Position numbers and translations under genes: made by a program. The notes under the pieces were generated by a model. It searched no databases. It saw only the letters and a list, made by a program, of their open reading frames with translations, and was not told the origin of the DNA. Below are positions 12,224 to 22,148 of a stretch of DNA of 64,000 bases, in pieces. Position 1 is the first letter of the stretch; every line of letters begins with the position of its first letter. The stretch comes from Luteibacter jiangsuensis (GTDB lineage: Bacteria; Pseudomonadota; Gammaproteobacteria; Xanthomonadales; Rhodanobacteraceae), in contig NZ_JAUSSK010000003.1 of the NCBI RefSeq assembly GCF_030812295.1, positions 434,001 through 498,000 on the forward strand, in the 5' to 3' direction.

Positions 12224-14097
12224 TCGCCGATATCGCGCGCTGGCTCGACACGGCGGTGGCCGAAGGGCGCCTGCGTTCCATCGACCGCGCGTTCGCGCGC
12301 TTCCTCGCCGCGCTCGAACCGGGCGTGGACGCGCGCGTGCTGGCGACGGCCGCCCTGGTCAGCCGTGAACTCGGCGAGGGGCATATCTGCGTGGATGTCG
12401 GCCGCCTCGGCGAGATGGAGGCATCGTTGGGGGAACCGGAACGTTGGATCGGCACGTCGTCCCTCGTGGCCGATCCCGCAGGCGATCCAGCCGCCCCCCT
12501 GGTACTCGACGGTGGCTGGATCTACCTGCGCCGATTCTGGCGGGATGAGGCCCGTGTCGCCGACGCGGTGGTTTCCCGCTTCGGCAACCTGCCCGTGCCG
12601 GCCGAGCTCGATGTCGAACTCGACCGCCTGTTCCCGCGCGACGGCGACGGGCCCGACTGGCAGAAGATCGCCTGCGCCATCGCCATACGCGGGGCCTTCG
12701 CGGTGGTGACGGGCGGTCCGGGCACGGGCAAGACCACCACCGTGGTCCGCGTGCTGGGGCTCCTGCAGGCGTTGGCCCATCGCGAAGGCCTACCGCGCCT
12801 GCGTATCCGCCTCGCGGCACCCACGGGCAAGGCCGCGGCACGATTGAACGCCTCCATCGCCGGGCAGATCGAGCGGCTCGACGTGGAGGCCGCCGTCAAG
12901 CAGGCGATTCCCGCCGAAGTCACGACCTTGCACCGGCTCCTGGGCAGCCGGCCGGACAGCCGCGCCTTTCGTCACGACCGCGACAACCCCTTGCATGTGG
13001 ATGTCCTCGTCATCGACGAGGCGTCGATGATCGACCTGGAGATGATGGCGGCGACGCTGGACGCCTTGCCCGCCGGGGCACGCCTCATCCTGCTTGGCGA
13101 CAAGGACCAGTTGTCGTCGGTGGAAGCGGGTGCCGTCCTCGGCGACCTGTGCGCACGCGCGGAGCAGGGGTATTACGACGTCGACACGCAGGCGTGGCTG
13201 GCCACGGTATGTCACGTCGACGTCGGTCCGTGGACGATGCCCACGGAGGCACGTGCGCTCGACCAGCATGTCGCGATGCTCCGGCGCAGCCGCCGCTTCG
13301 GTGACGACAGCGGTATCGGCGCGCTGGCCGCCGCGATCAATGCCGGCGACCTGGCGGGAGTCCGTTCGGTGTTCGAACGGGGTGACACCGACCTCGCCGC
13401 GTTGCCGCCCTCTCCTGAGTCGGTCGCCGTCCTGGCGATCGAGGGGCGTGGGGAAGCTCCCGGCTATGCGCACTACCTGGATCGCATCGAAGCGGCGCGT
13501 CCGGCGGCCGATGCTTCGTTTGCCCACTTCGAGGCCTGGGGAGCGGAAGCGTTGCGGTCGTACGCCCGGTTCCAGTTGCTCTGTGCCACGCGGCACGGTG
13601 ACAACGGTGTCCTGCGGCAGAACGAGCGCATTGCACAGGGCCTGCTCGAACGCGGCCTCATCGAGACGGTGGACGGCTGGTATGAAGGCCGGCCGGTGAT
13701 GGTCACCCGCAACGATTACGCGCTGGGGCTGATGAACGGCGATGTGGGCGTCACGCTATGGGCGCCGGACGGGCAGGGCGGCATGGCCTTGCGCGTGGTG
13801 TTCGCGGTGATGGACGAGCGTGGCGGTGAACGCATCCGTTTCGTCGTCCCGAGCCGTCTCGCGGCGGTGGAAACGGTGTATGCGATGACCGTGCACAAGT
13901 CGCAGGGCTCGGAGTTCGAGCACACCGCGCTCGCGCTGCCCGCCGAACCGTCTCCCGTGCTGACACGCGAACTGGTCTATACGGGCGTGACCCGCGCAAG
14001 GCGCTGGTTCACCTTGCTGGCCGCACCGGACATCCTCGGCTATGCGGTGCAGCGGAAGACGCAGCGGGCCTCGGGTTTGCTGCGCCGGTTGCTCTGA
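12220..14097 (+). CDS. recD: Exodeoxyribonuclease V subunit alpha (RecD)
   Basis: RecD is the fast 5'-to-3' SF1B helicase of RecBCD and regulates the nuclease and its response to Chi. The protein is 625 aa. Walker A GGPGTGKTTT lies near residues 164-173, followed by LAAPTGKAAARL. Walker B is VLVIDEASMIDLEMM, then LILLGDKDQLSSVEAG, and the C-terminal UvrD_C2-like motif is AMTVHKSQGSEFEH with LVYTGVTRAR. The N-terminal region (1-150) is the RecD-specific part that contacts RecC and RecB, so this is RecD1 rather than a stand-alone RecD2. It is the last gene of the operon, overlapping recB by 4 bp. The gene that follows is on the opposite strand. Confidence 0.98.
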   Translation: MIADIARWLDTAVAEGRLRSIDRAFARFLAALEPGVDARVLATAALVSRELGEGHICVDVGRLGEMEASLGEPERWIGTSSLVADPAGDPAAPLVLDGGWIYLRRFWRDEARVADAVVSRFGNLPVPAELDVELDRLFPRDGDGPDWQKIACAIAIRGAFAVVTGGPGTGKTTTVVRVLGLLQALAHREGLPRLRIRLAAPTGKAAARLNASIAGQIERLDVEAAVKQAIPAEVTTLHRLLGSRPDSRAFRHDRDNPLHVDVLVIDEASMIDLEMMAATLDALPAGARLILLGDKDQLSSVEAGAVLGDLCARAEQGYYDVDTQAWLATVCHVDVGPWTMPTEARALDQHVAMLRRSRRFGDDSGIGALAAAINAGDLAGVRSVFERGDTDLAALPPSPESVAVLAIEGRGEAPGYAHYLDRIEAARPAADASFAHFEAWGAEALRSYARFQLLCATRHGDNGVLRQNERIAQGLLERGLIETVDGWYEGRPVMVTRNDYALGLMNGDVGVTLWAPDGQGGMALRVVFAVMDERGGERIRFVVPSRLAAVETVYAMTVHKSQGSEFEHTALALPAEPSPVLTRELVYTGVTRARRWFTLLAAPDILGYAVQRKTQRASGLLRRLL

Positions 14098-14100
14098 TTC

Positions 14101-14117
14101 GCAGGGTCGGCTCCCAC
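14101..14117 (-). repeat. Partial REP-like element
   Basis: Right after the recD stop, the plus strand reads GGGTCGGCTCCCAC. This is the reverse complement of the GTGGGAGCCGACC half of the REP family found several times in this window. The other half is eroded. Confidence 0.5.
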
Positions 14118-14130
14118 CACGGCGTCGCGA

Positions 14131-15141
14131 TCAGCCCACCTTATAAAAATCCTTGTACCAAGCGGCGAACTTCGCCAGCCCTTCGTCGACCGACGTTGCG
14201 GGCGCATAACCCACATCCCGACGCAGCGCCGACACATCCGCCCAGGTGTCGGGGACATCGCCGGGCTGCATCGGCAGCAGGCGTTTTTCCACTTCGCGCC
14301 CGAGGTGCTTCTCCAGCAGGCCGATGAAGTCCAGCAGTTGAACCGGCTCATCGTTACCGATGTTGTATACGCGGTAAGGCGCGGCCGAGCTGCCCGGATT
14401 CGGTGCCACCGGATCGTACGAAGGGTCCGGCGCGGCCGGGTGGTCGAGCGTACGGATCACGCCTTCGACGATGTCGTCGATGAAGGTGAAGTCGCGGCTG
14501 TGCTGGCCGTGGTTGTATACGTCGATCGGTTCGCCGCGGACGATGCGGTTGGCGAACAGGATGGGCGACATGTCCGGCCGGCCCCACGGGCCGTAGACGG
14601 TGAAGAAGCGCAGGCCCGTCGTCGGCAGCCCGAACAGGTGGCTGTACGTATGCGCCATCAGCTCGTTCGATTTCTTCGTGGCCGCGTAGAGGCTGACGGG
14701 GTGGTCCACGGCGTCCTCCACCGCGAAGGGCATCTTGCGATTGGCGCCATAGACGGAACTGGACGAGGCGTAGACCAGGTGCCCCACCTGGTGCCGCCGG
14801 CAGGCCTCGAGGATGTTCACGAAGCCGACCAGGTTGCTCTGCACGTAGGCGTGCGGATGGGTGAGCGAGTAACGGACGCCGGCCTGGGCGGCGAGGTTCA
14901 CCACGCGCTCCGGCTGGAAATCGGCGAATGCCTTGTCCACCGCCGTCTGCACGGCGAGGTCCGCGCGGAGGTGGGTGTATGCCGGGTGCGCGGCGAAGCG
15001 GGCGAGGCGCGCTTCCTTCAGTGACGGATCGTAGTAGTCGTTGTGGTTGTCGAAACCCAGCACGGTGTCGCCGCGCGCGAGGAGGCGCTCGGTGAGGGCC
15101 GAACCGACGAAACCGGCGCTGCCGGTGACCAGGATGCGCAT
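14131..15141 (-). CDS. NAD-dependent epimerase, UDP-glucuronate 4-epimerase-like
   Basis: This is an extended short-chain dehydrogenase/reductase of 336 aa that probably interconverts UDP-glucuronate and UDP-galacturonate for surface polysaccharide synthesis. The start is placed at 15141, directly before MRILVTGSAGFVGSALTERL, the Rossmann TGxxGxxG motif; upstream in-frame sequence is not conserved. The catalytic triad is visible as the YASSSSVYG block and the following SLYAATKKSNE (Tyr-x-x-x-Lys). The stretch LRFFTVYGPWGRPDM, with GRPDMSP typical of GAE/LspL-type UDP-GlcA 4-epimerases, supports the substrate call. No other polysaccharide gene is adjacent, so the pathway is not fixed. It is divergent from the thrS operon with a 233-bp spacer. 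Confidence 0.85.
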   Translation of the reverse strand: MRILVTGSAGFVGSALTERLLARGDTVLGFDNHNDYYDPSLKEARLARFAAHPAYTHLRADLAVQTAVDKAFADFQPERVVNLAAQAGVRYSLTHPHAYVQSNLVGFVNILEACRRHQVGHLVYASSSSVYGANRKMPFAVEDAVDHPVSLYAATKKSNELMAHTYSHLFGLPTTGLRFFTVYGPWGRPDMSPILFANRIVRGEPIDVYNHGQHSRDFTFIDDIVEGVIRTLDHPAAPDPSYDPVAPNPGSSAAPYRVYNIGNDEPVQLLDFIGLLEKHLGREVEKRLLPMQPGDVPDTWADVSALRRDVGYAPATSVDEGLAKFAAWYKDFYKVG

Positions 15142-15190
15142 GGTGGGGACCTGCGGTTTGGGCGGCCCCACAGTGTAACGGACGCCCGGA

Positions 15191-15219
15191 TTGACACGGC
15201 AGCGGCGCTGATCTAGTTT
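15191..15219 (+). promoter_or_regulatory. Candidate promoter of the thrS operon
   Basis: A perfect TTGACA (15191-15196) is followed after 17 bp by TAGTTT (15214-15219). Transcription from here would start near 15226 and give a leader of about 150 nt that carries the small ORF and terminator described next. Confidence 0.55.
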
Positions 15220-15276
15220 TTGCGCGATATCCACGAGACGAAGGTGGCCCGCGGCAACGCCGGCCGAGTGTGCGAC

Positions 15277-15303
15277 ATGCGGACTACTCGCTTCCCAACC
15301 TGA
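15277..15303 (+). CDS. Putative thrS leader peptide MRTTRFPT
   Basis: This is an eight-codon ORF with three threonine codons: ATG CGG ACT ACT CGC, then TTC CCA ACC TGA. Two are tandem ACT, expected to be a poorly used Thr codon in DNA this GC-rich. A weak GAG ribosome-binding site lies 8 bp upstream (15266-15268). The ORF sits inside the thrS leader, and its stop is 28 bp before an intrinsic terminator hairpin that precedes thrS. This is the geometry of a transcription attenuator in which ribosome stalling at Thr codons lets the operon be read. The arrangement is seen directly; the regulatory role is inference by analogy with the pheM leader of E. coli pheST. Confidence 0.6.
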
Positions 15304-15331
15304 GCCCCCGCCACGTCTTCGTCACCTTTCG

Positions 15332-15355
15332 AAGGGCGCCTGGCGCCCTTTTTGT
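15332..15355 (+). terminator. Attenuator-type intrinsic terminator in the thrS leader
   Basis: A 9-bp perfect stem AAGGGCGCC/GGCGCCCTT with a 1-nt nominal loop (15332-15350) runs into a T-rich tract and ends about 20 bp before the thrS ATG. An alternative pairing, CTTCG (15317-15321) with CGAAG (15330-15334), extended by further pairs, overlaps the left arm. It could serve as the antiterminator. Confidence 0.7.
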
Positions 15356-15374
15356 TTGTCCGGAACCACCATCC

Positions 15375-17276
15375 ATGATCCAGATCACGCTACCTGACGG
15401 CAGCCAGCGCCCGTTCGACCATCCCGTCACCGTGCAGGACGTCGCCGCCTCGATCGGTGCCGGCCTGGCCAAGGCCACGCTCGCCGGAAAGGTCGACGGC
15501 AAGCTCGTCGATGCCAGCTTCACCATCGACCACGATGCCGCCCTCGAGATCGTCACCGAGAAGAGCCCCGAGGCGCTGGACATCCTGCGCCACTCCACGG
15601 CGCACCTGCTCGGCCAGGCAGTGCAGCGCTTGTTCCCGGGCGCGCAGGTCACGATCGGTCCCGTGGTCGAGAACGGCTTCTACTACGATTTCGCCTACGA
15701 GCGGCCCTTCACCCCGGACGACCTCGACGCCATCCAGGCGGAGATGGAGAAGATCGTCAAGGAACAGATCCCGGTCACCCGTTCGGTGAAGAGCCGTGAC
15801 GAGGCGATCCGCTTCTTCCGCGACATGGGCGAGGAATACAAGGCCCAGATCATCGAAAGCATCCCGGCCAACGAGGAGCTTTCGCTCTACACGCAGGGCG
15901 AGTTCACCGATCTCTGCCGCGGCCCGCATGTGTCGAACACGGGCAAGCTGCGCGCGTTCAAGCTGATGAAGGTGGCCGGCGCCTACTGGCGCGGCGATTC
16001 CAGCAACGAGATGCTGACCCGCATCTACGGCACCGCATGGCTGAACGACAAGGATCTCAAGGCCTACCTGCTCCAGCTGGAGGAGGCCGAGAAGCGCGAC
16101 CACCGGCGCATCGGCAAGCAGCTGGGCCTCTTCCACATGCAGGAAGAGGCGCCGGGCATGGTCTTCTGGCATCCGAAGGGCTGGGCCATCTGGCAGGCGG
16201 TGGAGCAATACGTCCGCGGCGTCTACAAGAAGAGTGGCTACCGCGAAGTCCGCGGCCCACAGATCATGGACGTGAGCCTGTGGAAGAAGTCCGGTCATTG
16301 GGACAACTACCAGGAAAACATGTTCTTCACCGAGTCGGAGAAGCGCACGTATGCCCTGAAACCCATGAATTGCCCGGGCCACGTGCAGATCTTCAACACC
16401 AACCTGCACAGCTACCGCGACCTGCCGGTCCGCTATGGCGAGTTCGGCGGCTGCCATCGCAACGAGCCCTCGGGCGCGCTGCACGGCATCATGCGCGTGC
16501 GCGCCTTCACCCAGGACGACGGCCACATCTTCTGCACGCCGGCCCAGATCGAGGAGGAGGTCGCGGCCTTCCACGGCCAGGCCATGAAGGTCTACGAGGA
16601 CTTCGGCTTCAACGACATCGCGATGAAGATCGCTCTCCGCCCCGACAAGCGGATCGGTTCGGACGAGGTCTGGGACAAGGCCGAGCACGCCCTGCGCGGG
16701 GCCCTGTCGGCGGCCGGGGTGGAGTGGGAGGAGCTGCCGGGCGAGGGCGCCTTCTACGGTCCCAAGATCGAGTACCACATGAAGGATTCGATCGGCCGGG
16801 CCTGGCAGGTCGGTACCATGCAGGTCGATTTCATGATGCCCGAGCGCCTGGGCGCCGAATACGTGGACGAGAACAGCCAGCGCCAGCACCCGGTCATGCT
16901 GCACCGGGCCATCGTGGGCTCCATGGAGCGCTTCATCGGCATCCTGATCGAGCACCACGCGGGCTTGCTTCCGACCTGGCTCGCCCCCATTCAGGCAGTT
17001 GCCTTCAGCATTACCGACGCGCAGGCCGATTATGTGCGTGAAGTGACGCAAACCCTTGTCGGACAAGGGTTCAGGGTGGAAGCCGATTTGCGCAACGAAA
17101 AAGTCGGATATAAAATCCGCGAGCACACGTTGCAGAAGGTGCCCTATCTCATCGTGATCGGCGATCGCGAGAAGGAAACGGGTACCATTTCCGTACGTAC
17201 CCGCGGCGGCGAAGACCTTGGCAGCATGCCGGTGGCACAATTCGTCGAACGTTTGGAAGCCGAGACCCGCCGCTAG
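15375..17276 (+). CDS. thrS: Threonyl-tRNA synthetase
   Basis: A class II aminoacyl-tRNA synthetase that charges tRNA-Thr and edits mis-attached serine. The protein is 633 aa, close to the 642 aa of E. coli. The start at 15375 gives the TGS domain ([14 protein letters not shown], residues 1-61). It is followed by the editing domain with [11 protein letters not shown], which resembles the HxxxH editing motif. The catalytic core has motif 2 around [14 protein letters not shown], and the zinc ligands Cys333 (in MNCPGH) and His384 (in DDGHIF). The C-terminal anticodon-binding domain ends in [15 protein letters not shown]. It heads the operon with infC, rpmI, rplT, pheS and pheT, a gammaproteobacterial arrangement. 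Control by the threonine-codon leader upstream is proposed. Confidence 0.98.
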
Positions 17277-17320
17277 GCCGCGGGTCCGGTATTGGGATCA
17301 TTCTTCTGGAGGATAGCGGT

Positions 17321-17848
17321 ATCGCTACGACCGATAACAAGGGCAATCGCAAGAACAACGACATCCGCGTGCCGCGGGTGCGCGTGCTGGGCGCCGAGGG
17401 CGAGCAGTTGGGCATCATGGAGACCCGTGACGCCATTCGTGCCGCCGAGGAGCTGGGCATGGACCTCGTCGAGATCCAGCCGAACGGCGATCCGCCGGTC
17501 TGCAAGATCATGGATTACGGCAAGTTCAAGTTCGAAGCCCAGAAGAAGGCCCAGGCCGCCAAGAAGAAACAGAAGCAGGTCGAGATCAAGGAAGTGAAGT
17601 TCCGCCCCGTCACCGACGTGGGCGACTACGACATCAAGCTGCGCAAGATGCGCGAGTTCCTCGAGGAAGGCGACAAGGTCAAGGTGACGATCCGCTTCCG
17701 CGGTCGCGAGATGTCCCACCAGGACCTCGGCCAGAACCTGGCCCGCAAGATCCAGGCCGACATCGGCGAGGAAGGTGTGGTCGAGCAGTTCCCCCGCCTG
17801 GAAGGCCGCCAGATGGTCATGATGATCGGCCCGAAGAAGAAGGTCTGA
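17321..17848 (+). CDS. infC: Translation initiation factor IF-3 with an ATC start codon
   Basis: IF-3 binds the 30S subunit, prevents premature subunit joining and rejects non-standard start codons. The protein is 175 aa. No ATG, GTG or TTG is in frame at a position giving a full-length product; the first GTG (17369) would remove the conserved N-terminus. An ATC at 17321 lies 8 bp after a strong GGAGG (17308-17312) and opens the frame with [20 protein letters not shown], which aligns with IF-3 N-termini. A rare start codon is the classic self-control device of infC (ATT in E. coli). The body holds [20 protein letters not shown], the lysine-rich linker and the C-terminal [16 protein letters not shown]. 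It lies 44 bp after thrS. Confidence 0.95.
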
Positions 17849-17867
17849 TCGGAAAGGACCCCCGTGC

Positions 17868-17886
17868 GTAGGAGCCCGGCTCCTAC
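17868..17886. repeat. Palindromic GTAGGAGCC-type intergenic element
   Basis: GTAGGAGCC-C-GGCTCCTAC is a perfect 9-bp inverted repeat between infC and rpmI, with no T tract. It resembles the REP cores elsewhere in the window, with TAGGAGCC in place of TGGGAGCC. Confidence 0.5.
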
Positions 17887-18026
17887 ACACATCCTTAAGA
17901 TTCCTGTATAGTCGCCGGCTCGGCCCGTATGGATGGGCCGAACCACCGTTCCCGGCAGGAAGGAAAGCGCGTTGCCTCCCAAGGCTCGCCGCCGGATCAG
18001 TCAGCAACCGAATACGGAGCATTCCG
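17887..18026 (+). promoter_or_regulatory. Leader of rpmI-rplT
   Basis: This 140-nt stretch holds a TATAGT -10-like hexamer near 17908, a hairpin GGCCC/GGGCC near 17931-17948, and an rpmI ribosome-binding site with GGAG near 18018. In E. coli, L20 represses rpmI-rplT by binding RNA structures that mimic its 23S site. Whether this leader does so cannot be judged by eye. Confidence 0.35.
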
Positions 18027-18224
18027 ATGCCCAAGATCAAGACCAACCGGGCGGCCGCGAAGCGTTTTCGCAAGACCGCATCCGGCAAGTTCAAGGCCGG
18101 TCACGCCTTCAAGTCGCATATCCTGACCAAGAAGTCGACCAAGCGTAAGCGCGGCCTGCGCGCTCCCAACCACGTCAAAGCTTGCGACACCAAGGGTGTG
18201 GCTCGCATGTTGCCGTATCTCTAA
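18027..18224 (+). CDS. rpmI: 50S ribosomal protein L35
   Basis: L35 is a small basic protein of the large ribosomal subunit. The product is 65 aa, the usual length. It opens with [20 protein letters not shown] and ends [17 protein letters not shown], the classic L35 N- and C-terminal blocks. GGAG lies upstream. It is followed after 14 bp by rplT, so both are probably cotranslated and share L20 feedback control as in other gammaproteobacteria. No oddities. Confidence 0.98.
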
Positions 18225-18238
18225 GGGAGGGTTGAACC

Positions 18239-18598
18239 ATGGCTCGTGTTAAGCGTGGCGTTACCGCCCGTCGTCGTCACAAGAAGATCATCGGCCGTGC
18301 AAAGGGCTATTACAACGCCCGCCGCAAGGTATTCCGCGTAGCCAACCAGGCCGTCATCAAGGCCGGTCAGTACGCCTACATCGGCCGCAAGCAGCGCAAG
18401 CGTCAGTTCCGCGCCCTGTGGATCGTGCGTATCAATGCCGCCGCCCGTCAGTTCGGCCTGTCGTACAGCCGCCTGATCAATGGTCTGGCCAAGGCGCAGA
18501 TCACGGTCGACCGCAAGGTCCTCGCCGACCTCGCCGTACACGACATCAAGGCGTTTGGTGCGATCGCAGAGAAGGCCAAGGCCAGTCTGGCTGCGTAA
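18239..18598 (+). CDS. rplT: 50S ribosomal protein L20
   Basis: L20 is an early-binding 23S rRNA assembly protein. In E. coli it also represses the rpmI-rplT mRNA. The protein is 119 aa, opening [19 protein letters not shown] with the basic N-terminal extension that threads into the ribosome, and containing [25 protein letters not shown] lies upstream of the ATG (GGGAGGGTT). A strong terminator follows, at 18646, separating the ribosomal protein genes from pheST. Confidence 0.98.
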
Positions 18599-18637
18599 TC
18601 CGCTTTACCACGCGCGGTAGTCTTAATCGCGCGATGA

Positions 18638-19702
<1,065 letters not shown>

Positions 19703-19766
19703 TCCGCATCGACGCGAGGCCGGCCCTCCGGCCGGCCACGACTCCACGTTCAACGAGCTCGCTCCC

Positions 19767-22148
19767 ATGAAATTCTCTGAAAACTGGCTGCGCGAACTGG
19801 TCGCCATCGACGCGGATCGCGCGGCGCTGGTCCACGCGCTCACGATGTCCGGCCTGGAAGTGGAAGAGGTCACGCCGTTGGGCGAGGGCCTCGACGGCAT
19901 CGTCGTCGCCGAGATCGTCGAGGCGGTGAAGCATCCTGAAGCCGACCGGCTGCAAGTGTGCAAGGTGGATGCGGGGCAGGGTGAGCCGCTGCAGATCGTC
20001 TGCGGCGCGCCCAATGCCCGTGTCGGCATCCGCGTGCCGCTGGCCACCGTTGGCGCGACGCTGCCGGGCGGGATCCAGATCAAGGCGGCGAAGCTGCGTG
20101 GCGTCGAGTCGTACGGCATGCTCTGCTCGGCCAAGGAACTCGGCATCGACGCCGATGCCTCCGGGCTGCTCGAACTGCCGCCCGATGCACCGGTTGGCAA
20201 GCCGCTGGCCGAGTACATGGGCCTGCCCGATGCCAGCATCGAACTGAAGATCACCCCGAACCGCCCCGACGTGCTTGGCCTGCATGGCCTCGCCCATGAC
20301 GTGGCGGCGCTCTTCGGCAGCCAGGTGAAGGCGATCGGAACGACGGACGCGCCGGTAACCGCCAGCGCTTCCCGGCCCGTCCGGCTCGATGCGGGAGCCG
20401 ATGCGCCCCGTTACCTGGGCCGCGTGATCGAGGGCGTGGACGCGACCGCGCGGTCGCCGCTGTGGCTCGCGGAGCGCCTGCGCCGTTCCGGCATCCGTCC
20501 GATCAGCGCCATCGTCGATATCACCCAGTACGTGATGCTGGAACTCGGCCACCCCATGCATGCCTTCGACAACGACACCTTGTCCGGGTCCGTGGTGGTT
20601 CGCCATGCCGACGTCGGCGAGACCCTGAAACTGCTCGACGGCAGCGAGGCGACGCTCGATCCCTCCTTCGTCGTGATCGCGGATGAAGGGCGCCCGCTCG
20701 CCGTGGGTGGCGTGATGGGCGGCCTGGATTCGCGCGTGACCGACGCCACCCGGAATATCTTCCTGGAGGCCGCCCATTTCGCCCCCTCGGCGATCATGGG
20801 GCGCGCCCGCAAGCTTGGCCTGCACACGGATGCCTCGCACCGTTACGAGCGCGGCGTCGATCCGGGCCTTCCCAAGCGTGCGATGGAGCGGGCCACCGAA
20901 TTGATCCTGGCCATCGCGGGCGGAAAGGCCGGGCCGGTGACGGTCGCCGAGCGTCCGGAAGACTTGCGCGAGCACGCGCCGGTCCTGCTTCGTCATGCGC
21001 GCCTGCGCCGCGTGCTTGGTATCGAGGTTGCGGCCAGTGAGGTCGCCCGTATCTTCACCGCGCTCGGCATGGGCGTGGTCGAGGTCGCCGATGGCTGGCG
21101 CATCACGCCGCCGAGCAGCCGCTTCGACATCGAGCGCGAGGAAGACCTCATCGAGGAAGTCGCCCGTATCCACGGTTACGAGCGGATTCCCACCCACGTG
21201 CCCGCCGGCGAGATCGCCTTGCGCGCCGAGCCGGAGGCTCGTCTCACCGAGATGGCCTTGCGCGATCAGCTGGCCGCCCGCGGCTACTTCGAGGCCGTGA
21301 CGTTGTCCTTCGTGAGCGCCGACCTGCTGAAGACCTGGGGCGTGGACAAGGGCCAGGTCCCCCTGGCCAACCCGCTGTCGGCCGATCTCGCCGTCATGCG
21401 CACTTCGCTCCTGCCGGGCCTGGTCGAAGCGCTGAGGCACAACCGCGCGCGCCAGCAGGATCGCGTGCGACTGTTCGAGGTCGCCCGCAGCTTCCACGCG
21501 ACGGGCGGTGCGCCCGATGAAATCGGCCGCGTCGCTGTCGTCGCCTCGGGCGGCGCGCGGGCGGAGCAGTGGGGCGAGGCCTCGCGTACCGTCGACTTCT
21601 TCGACCTGAAGGGCGATCTCGATGCGCTGGTCGCCCACACGGGCGAGCCGGCGTGTTGGTCGGTGGACACCGCCGACCTGCCGTCGTGGCTGCATCCGGG
21701 GCGCGGCGCCCGCGTGCTCCGCGATGGCCGTCAGGCCGGTTTTCTGGGGGCGCTGCATCCGGCACTGGCCAAGGCGCTCGACCTTGGCCCGGACGTCCAC
21801 GTGATGGAACTGGCGCTGGAACCGATCCTGGCCCGGCGCCTGCCCAGCGCCAGCCGCGTCGCCCGTTTCCCCGCGGTTCGTCGTGATATCGCGGTGGAAT
21901 TGCCGGAAGAAGTGTCCTGGGCATCGGTGGAGGCCGCCGTGCGCGGCGTGCTGGGCGAGGTGCTCACGGAGATCCGCCTGTTCGACCGTTATGCGGGGAA
22001 GGGGATCGATGAAGGGCGAAAGAGTCTCGCTATGGGCTTGATTTTACAGGACGCTTCACGCACCCTTACCGACGACGATGCCGACGCTCGCGTGGCAGAT
22101 GCGGTGGGGGCATTGGAGAAGACATGCAAGGCAAGACTGCGAGGATAA
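19767..22148 (+). CDS. pheT: Phenylalanyl-tRNA synthetase beta subunit
   Basis: This is the structural and editing subunit of phenylalanyl-tRNA synthetase. The protein is 793 aa from [12 protein letters not shown]. The order is B1 domain, tRNA-binding (EMAP-like) domain with [20 protein letters not shown], and B3/B4 editing domain with [23 protein letters not shown]5 domain with [12 protein letters not shown], a catalytic-like B6/B7 domain and a C-terminal FDX-ACB anticodon-binding domain ([18 protein letters not shown]) follow. The stop is 1 bp before the ihfA start, indicating translational coupling, as in E. coli. Confidence 0.98.

Follow-up and report, generated by a model that had tools for sequence, protein, structure and literature searches.

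The window analysed here, a 64,000-nt stretch of the Luteibacter jiangsuensis genome, carries thrS, the gene for threonyl-tRNA synthetase (ThrRS), on the forward strand at 15375..17276 (NCBIfam thrS match, 720 bits), followed by infC, rpmI, rplT, pheS and pheT; NCBIfam matches name all of these genes except rpmI, which was recognised by eye from its ORF. The ThrRS of the closest named record, a Luteibacter MAG, is 91% identical, and records lying very near the window may be absent from this comparison. Positions 15142-15374 separate thrS from a divergent upstream neighbour that is epimerase-like by eye and whose start was taken to be the ATG at 15141. Further down the operon, a terminator-like palindrome (GGGGAGAAGGC..GCCTTCTCCCC, then ACACTTTTTT) lies at 18648-18682 between rplT and pheS, and a search of the window for a Phe leader ORF ahead of pheS revealed none.

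All features of the region ahead of thrS that are considered below lie on the forward strand. A preliminary description of this region had pointed to a promoter-like TTGACA/TAGTTT. The letters are there, TTGACA at 15191-15196 and TAGTTT at 15214-15219 with a 17-nt spacer (15191..15219 in all), and TTGAC with TA 17-19 nt downstream was found in 23 of 23 sequences of the genus, a looser TTGAC..TA pattern being found in 84 of the 141 type-A leaders defined below. The -10 element is weak, matching TATAAT at 3 of 6 positions, and a consensus promoter scan called no promoter at this site. From these elements, we infer an RNA start near 15226.

Downstream lies a leader ORF of 8 codons (15277..15303) that encodes MRTTRFPT and reads ATG CGG ACT ACT CGC TTC CCA ACC TGA, with Thr at codons 3, 4 and 8, matching the mini-ORF with tandem ACT codons and a third Thr codon that had been described before. 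It is followed by an intrinsic terminator (15331..15358; terminator scan and fold) with a 9-bp stem of -14.8 kcal/mol and a U-rich tail, its stem-loop (15331-15351) comprising 9 bp and a 3-nt loop before TTGTTTG. The distances are 28 nt from the leader stop to the terminator and 23 nt from the terminator to the thrS ATG (15375), in agreement with the 28 and about 20 nt given earlier. In the window, an intrinsic terminator thus stands between the leader ORF and the first gene, as in a leader-peptide attenuator, and this terminator does not belong to the upstream neighbour, since that gene is divergent in the window.

A search with ThrRS covered 149 relatives, 148 of which had a match, as well as named genomes, from which the best 80 loci were taken. 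This gave 190 loci (110 of them from the 148 matching relatives), or 191 upstream regions with the window, 180 of them distinct, and 20 loci from other families of the window's order were added later. The 180 distinct regions were sorted by motifs into 141 of type A, 14 of type B, 4 of type C, 5 of type D and 16 of none; the motifs were picked after inspection of the sequences and their letters are invariant by construction. The type-A set was selected by a motif preceding the leader ATG, and the invariance of the conserved AGTGTGCGAC at 15267..15276, just 5' of the start codon, is likewise by construction because this stretch is mostly the search anchor. Type A occurs in named Luteibacter, Dyella, Rhodanobacter, Arenimonas, Lysobacter, Luteimonas, Stenotrophomonas and Xanthomonas, among others, type B includes Dokdonella fugitiva, and all five type-D regions of this first set are from Massilia. 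We deduced from named relatives sharing leader types that the window's order is "Xanthomonadales", and call a second family "Burkholderiaceae-like" on the same grounds. By eye, three of the 16 regions of no type (L032, which has a 95-nt flank, L181 and L190) also have a Thr mini-ORF.

Several other features of these regions caught the eye. A core CGRACTACN (Arg-Thr-Thr; 15280-15288 in the window) is common to leaders of different types. Type-B regions (L060, L066, L152, L157, L178, L185-L187) have the order CGTAG-hairpin-CACGATCACCATGACGCGAAC, with a purine-rich stretch and a hairpin preceding the AUG. A tRNA-Val (GAC)-like gene adjoins thrS or the leader upstream in L059, L069, L074, L078, L088 and L189, and Rfam tRNA matches were obtained in L060 and L086. 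In Cupriavidus metallidurans, a start site listed for thrS bears the RNA-gene locus tag Rmet_R0015 (PMC9045368).

The threonine codons are the most strongly conserved part of the leader peptide, as judged from the type-A sequences. Codon 3 is Thr in 141 of 141 leaders (ACT in 130) and codon 4 is Thr in 117 (ACC 73, ACG 38, ACA 4, ACT 2), while 10 of the 24 leaders lacking Thr at codon 4 have it at codon 5; a single Thr codon only is found in 13 of the 141. Within the genus (n = 23), codon 4 is ACG in 17, ACC in 3, ACA in 2 and ACT in 1, its first two bases being constant. This pattern at codons 3 and 4 implies that Thr codons are kept beyond the peptide as such. ACT itself is rare: five genes of the window use it for 4 of their 177 Thr codons. 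The stop is codon 9 in 115 of the 141 leaders, and in frame 0 a stop falls within 10 codons in 138, compared with 9 in frame +2 and 54 in frame +1, 53 of the latter being the TGA made by ATG+A. In frame 0, 28.8% of the first eight codons are for Thr, whereas the other two frames give 6.6% and 3.0%. Both the coding pattern and the Thr codons are thus conserved, as expected of the short ORF with cognate codons of an attenuator, and their recurrence among relatives, which the preliminary description had proposed as a check, is what we found, with a terminator at near-fixed spacing.

A terminator lies no more than 90 nt past the ORF in 130 of 141 type-A, 14 of 14 type-B, 4 of 4 type-C and 5 of 5 type-D regions. 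In 122 of the 130 type-A leaders that have one, the stop-to-stem distance is 18-31 nt, while the distance from the stem to thrS varies from 20 to 223 nt, indicating that the terminator travels with the ORF. In the window, a terminator taken alone is not above chance (1 found against 1.3 expected). Among relatives, 11 of the 141 type-A leaders fail the terminator rule, including two of Xanthomonas hortorum and one similar sequence, which have a poor U run. Three Xanthomonas-type leaders (L091, L093, L172) retain the Thr ORF together with a terminator-like hairpin whose U run is poor. The gap between terminator and thrS holds palindromic repeats such as CCGGCCATCCATGGCCGG in Dyella/Rhodanobacter-like relatives (L024, L025, L028, L116 and others), as seen by eye.

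We then expressed the arrangement as a general rule, which misses some true cases: an ORF of 5-30 codons with three Thr codons, or two within two codons, and a terminator 5-75 nt further on. The rule picked out 118 of 141 type-A, 11 of 14 type-B, 4 of 4 type-C and 5 of 5 type-D regions, as well as 3 of the 16 regions of no type, which are outside the type counts. Since only 2 of 141 shuffled type-A regions complied, the association of ORF and terminator is beyond chance. When the rule was run with nine other residues in place of Thr, none equalled it, the best being Arg in the A regions (81) and Ser in the second family (10). The rule also picked out 12 of the 20 loci from other families of the window's order and 26 of 30 loci of the Burkholderiaceae-like family, and only 5 of 89 upstream regions across the class (131 genomes sampled), which is near the rate in shuffles (9 of 267). 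Three of these five class matches were set aside by eye, because L235 and L224 overlap a tRNA gene and L217 runs into one; the remaining two belong to the window's order (L197) and to type D (L226). These counts indicate that both the window's order and the Burkholderiaceae-like family commonly have the leader, which is not general in the class. Of 298 genomes of the order, 175 contain an exact copy of an 18-nt motif, GTGYGACATGNNNACTAC, each a single one, and none matches the reversed control; the proximity of the motif to thrS was verified only for the genomes sampled earlier. In the window's own genome, it occurs once without mismatch, and with up to 2 mismatches at 4 places versus 5 for the control.

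From 40 genomes of the Burkholderiaceae-like family, 30 loci were obtained, 26 of type D and 4 not (L304, L311, L314, L328). Together with Massilia, type D comprises 31 distinct leaders, 30 of them with a terminator, which are ATGACACCGCGAACTAC-like, start MTPRTT.. and contain 2-7 Thr codons. A GAGCGAGAAAGGC-like stretch, ATGACACCGCGAACTAC and a GC-rich terminator recur in Massilia and relatives (L083, L086, L089, L101, L106 and 26 of L304-L333), and a search of the open-licence literature found no description of Massilia-type thrS leaders. In a further set of loci (L284, L288-L293, L295, L301), the AUG of a Thr mini-ORF stands, by eye, a few bases after a TACAAT-like -10 element, and such leaders are perhaps leaderless.

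The preliminary description had overlooked two elements of the leader RNA: a hairpin between the Shine-Dalgarno sequence and the AUG, and a pairing of the Shine-Dalgarno region with the segment behind the ORF. The hairpin (15245..15266, with a GCAA loop in the window) lies between the GGTGG segment and the AUG. Every one of the 141 type-A leaders can form it with 5 pairs or more, at a mean of -13.6 kcal/mol, and in 60 sequences 100% of its cells are paired; its loop is GCAA, GUAA or GAAA in 70 of the 141. In 136 of the 141 type-A leaders, GGT precedes the AUG by 31-34 nt, and pairing with the anti-Shine-Dalgarno is stronger for the GGT segment (-7.8 kcal/mol) than for the AUG-adjacent stretch (-5.6 kcal/mol). 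Because GAGGTGG directly precedes the AUG in all four type-C leaders, the GGTGG segment is probably the Shine-Dalgarno sequence of type A.

Two competing helices are supported by folding and comparison. Region 1 (15237..15248; GACGAAGGTGGC), which includes the Shine-Dalgarno-like AAGGTG, would form the 5' strand of a helix P1 (fold, swap test, pair counts), and region 2 (15310..15323; GCCACGTCTTCGTC) is predicted either to be its partner or to enter the antiterminator; in the window fold, 12 bp join GCCACGUCUUCGUC of region 2 to region 1. The antiterminator fold (15304..15344, about -15 kcal/mol; fold, swaps, pair counts) is mutually exclusive with the terminator, and the two are balanced in the window (-14.9 and -14.8 kcal/mol, respectively). 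CTTCG (15317-15321) and CGAAG (15330-15334), which had been suggested to form an alternative stem overlapping the terminator, are both present and turn out to be part of this larger structure, with some covariation support.

Pairs were counted in 60 of the 141 type-A leaders (ThrRS identity of at least 81%, terminator present), with slide, shuffle and swap controls that do not fully remove shared ancestry. P1 cells were paired in 78.7% versus 34-56% when slid, and antiterminator cells in 74.7% versus 34-54%, both in the 60 leaders and with shared ancestry partly retained. For P1, 47 cells had changed on both sides; shuffles gave 29.6, a single one in 500 being as high. For the antiterminator, the figures were 34 and 18.4, with 0 of 500 as high. 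The measures above shuffles were thus cells paired, cells changed on both sides and the covariation score; the counts of co-changed pairs and of pair types were reached in 403 and 387 of 500 shuffles for P1 and in 130 and 267 for the antiterminator. When segments were exchanged among genomes, 0 of 2000 permutations reached the observed P1 pairing in type A and 3 of 2000 in type B, whereas types C and D did not pass, 166 and 620 of the 2000 permutations doing as well; for the antiterminator, none of 2000 did so in each of two type-A subsets. Compared with shuffled post-ORF segments sequence by sequence, the antiterminator reached a mean z of -1.1, with 22% of 129 sequences at 5/100 or better, and in type D a mean z of -0.2, which is not significant. 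A first duplex test with a too-short arm had given no signal (mean z -0.27) and was replaced by this whole-fold version. For type A, these models predict an antiterminator that excludes the terminator and would be free to form under a stalled ribosome, with a moderate signal per sequence.

Run on the same 60 leaders, RNAalifold chose another long-range pairing rather than P1, between GAGNGUGC (15266-15273) and GCGCNCUU (15344-15351, the 3' arm of the terminator), in nearly all of them. We did not accept this pairing and take it as a coincidence, considering that both sides are likely conserved for other reasons and that it predicts the opposite response. In type D, a pairing of CGCGAAC in the ORF with GTTCGCG behind it looked good by eye, failed the swap test (538 of 2000) and has its motif in 10 of 31 leaders; a pairing between the pre-AUG and post-ORF segments of type D passes (5 of 2000).

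With the ORF, its Thr codons and the terminator conserved at near-fixed spacing, these sequences support the mechanism first suggested for the locus, and we consider it very probable that the thrS operon is controlled by ribosome-mediated transcription attenuation sensing charged tRNA-Thr. A ribosome would start on the leader ORF and, when Thr-tRNA is short, wait at Thr codons 3-4. From known ribosome footprint lengths, its leading edge would be at about 15295 when codon 3 or 4 occupies the A site and at about 15312 at the UGA, a geometry that fits with stalling. The post-ORF segment, which lies 15-21 nt downstream, would be left free by the stalled ribosome and would pair with the 5' arm of the terminator (antiterminator, 15304-15344), so that RNA polymerase would read into thrS. 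When Thr-tRNA is plentiful, a ribosome at the UGA would cover the start of the segment, the terminator would form and transcription would stop. On a leader free of ribosomes, this segment would instead pair with the Shine-Dalgarno region (P1) and leave the terminator free, a default off state. Translation of the leader, stalling, its timing and the direction of the response are what we infer from this arrangement.

Other explanations fit some of these observations. ThrRS might bind the leader as a tRNA mimic, at the pre-AUG hairpin or at GAGNGUG, much as it binds the anticodon-like domains of the E. coli thrS operator (a likeness judged by eye), the ORF only serving this site; NGU is the Thr anticodon pattern, and the ribosome-binding site does combine a strongly conserved hairpin with GAGNGUGYGAC. 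Such binding would leave the Thr codons with their free third base, the fixed stop and the terminator unexplained, types C, D and others keep Thr codons without this hairpin, and GNGU lacks the U that precedes the anticodon in a tRNA loop, which makes this explanation improbable. Equally improbable, in our view, is a terminator that only trims transcription constitutively, with a mini-ORF that aids ribosome loading or reinitiation and no amino-acid sensing: leader ORFs that raise downstream translation have been proposed (PMC4833913), but here the Thr codons are the conserved part, the gene makes Thr-tRNA, and a distance of 20-223 nt from the terminator stem to thrS is too variable for coupling.

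Two further readings appear scarcely tenable. An N-terminal extension of ThrRS could begin at the in-frame GTG at 15270, from which a frame of 668 aa is open in the window; yet the leader-thrS distance modulo 3 is 1, 0 and 2 in 71, 41 and 29 of 141 leaders, and the leader ORF uses a different frame and ends in a conserved stop, so that we give this reading almost no credence. A T-box-like RNA is suggested by letter resemblance only, that of AAGGTGGCCCGCG to the T-box element AGGGUGGNACCGCG. Since AAGGTGGCCCGCG lies only about 15 nt from the putative RNA start, there is no room for a stem I with its specifier loop, and the Rfam T-box model matched neither positions 13500-20500 of the window (E up to 10) nor ten loci (E up to 0.5), making membership of this class extremely unlikely. 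Nor did any Rfam leader family score above its gathering threshold in the same part of the window and ten loci, Thr_leader giving no match there; L306 gave, on its other strand, a Leu_leader match that remained below threshold (28.8 bits versus 50).

Leader-peptide systems in E. coli include the pheST attenuator (pheM) and the thr operon leader thrL. Like these, the attenuator proposed here combines a leader ORF with cognate codons, a terminator and a competing antiterminator; unlike them, it precedes thrS, has mostly 8 codons with 2-3 Thr, and carries a remote Shine-Dalgarno sequence, which a hairpin separates from the AUG and which can pair with region 2. E. coli thrS itself is autorepressed at the level of translation by ThrRS bound to an operator, which shares with our leaders the gene and a ribosome-binding site split by a hairpin but acts without Thr ORF or terminator. 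In Firmicutes, thrS is controlled by a T-box, which also senses Thr-tRNA charging before thrS by antitermination, as proposed here, but binds the tRNA directly and has no ORF. Among published synthetase leaders, pheST is cited as a gamma-proteobacterial attenuator in an actinobacterial survey, which reports no conserved RNA structure for threonine (PMC1262725). According to its published description, Streptomyces lividans thrL is likewise a Thr-containing leader ORF proposed before thrS with two Thr codons, but it is a leaderless 18-aa ORF followed by one hairpin without a U run, and termination was called unclear (PMC8079986). The leader peptide of Bacillus hisS*/hisZ also precedes a synthetase gene, but concerns histidine and Firmicutes; the main text of that article, by Naville and Gautheret, does not contain "thrS" and names threonyl-tRNA synthetase once, as an example of E. 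coli self-regulation (PMC2965389). The preliminary description knew of no thrS leader-peptide attenuator, which is to be amended for the S. lividans proposal (PMC8079986). In the main texts of the open-licence literature, we found no thrS leader peptide outside S. lividans, and so none for Proteobacteria.

Taken together, the leaders may reflect an old and widespread attenuation of thrS in the window's order and the Burkholderiaceae-like family, existing in several builds (A-D and near-leaderless). In its main form, a Shine-Dalgarno sequence lying 31-34 nt upstream of the AUG, beyond a conserved hairpin, would be sequestered by the antiterminator segment, coupling initiation, stalling and termination, and the near-invariant rare ACT would make one tRNA-Thr isoacceptor the sensor; we propose this joint reading tentatively, rating its chances slightly below even. 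On the evidence of the sequences, what precedes thrS is a genuine and conserved candidate for a threonine attenuator; its mechanism would be of the kind known from pheST and amino-acid operons, and its ribosome-binding site is unusual. The distant Shine-Dalgarno sequence and the fixed ACT codon are open to direct reporter tests. If true, such attenuation would be a third solution for the control of thrS besides ThrRS autorepression and the T-box, and hundreds of natural variants would be at hand to compare how one sensor is rebuilt.
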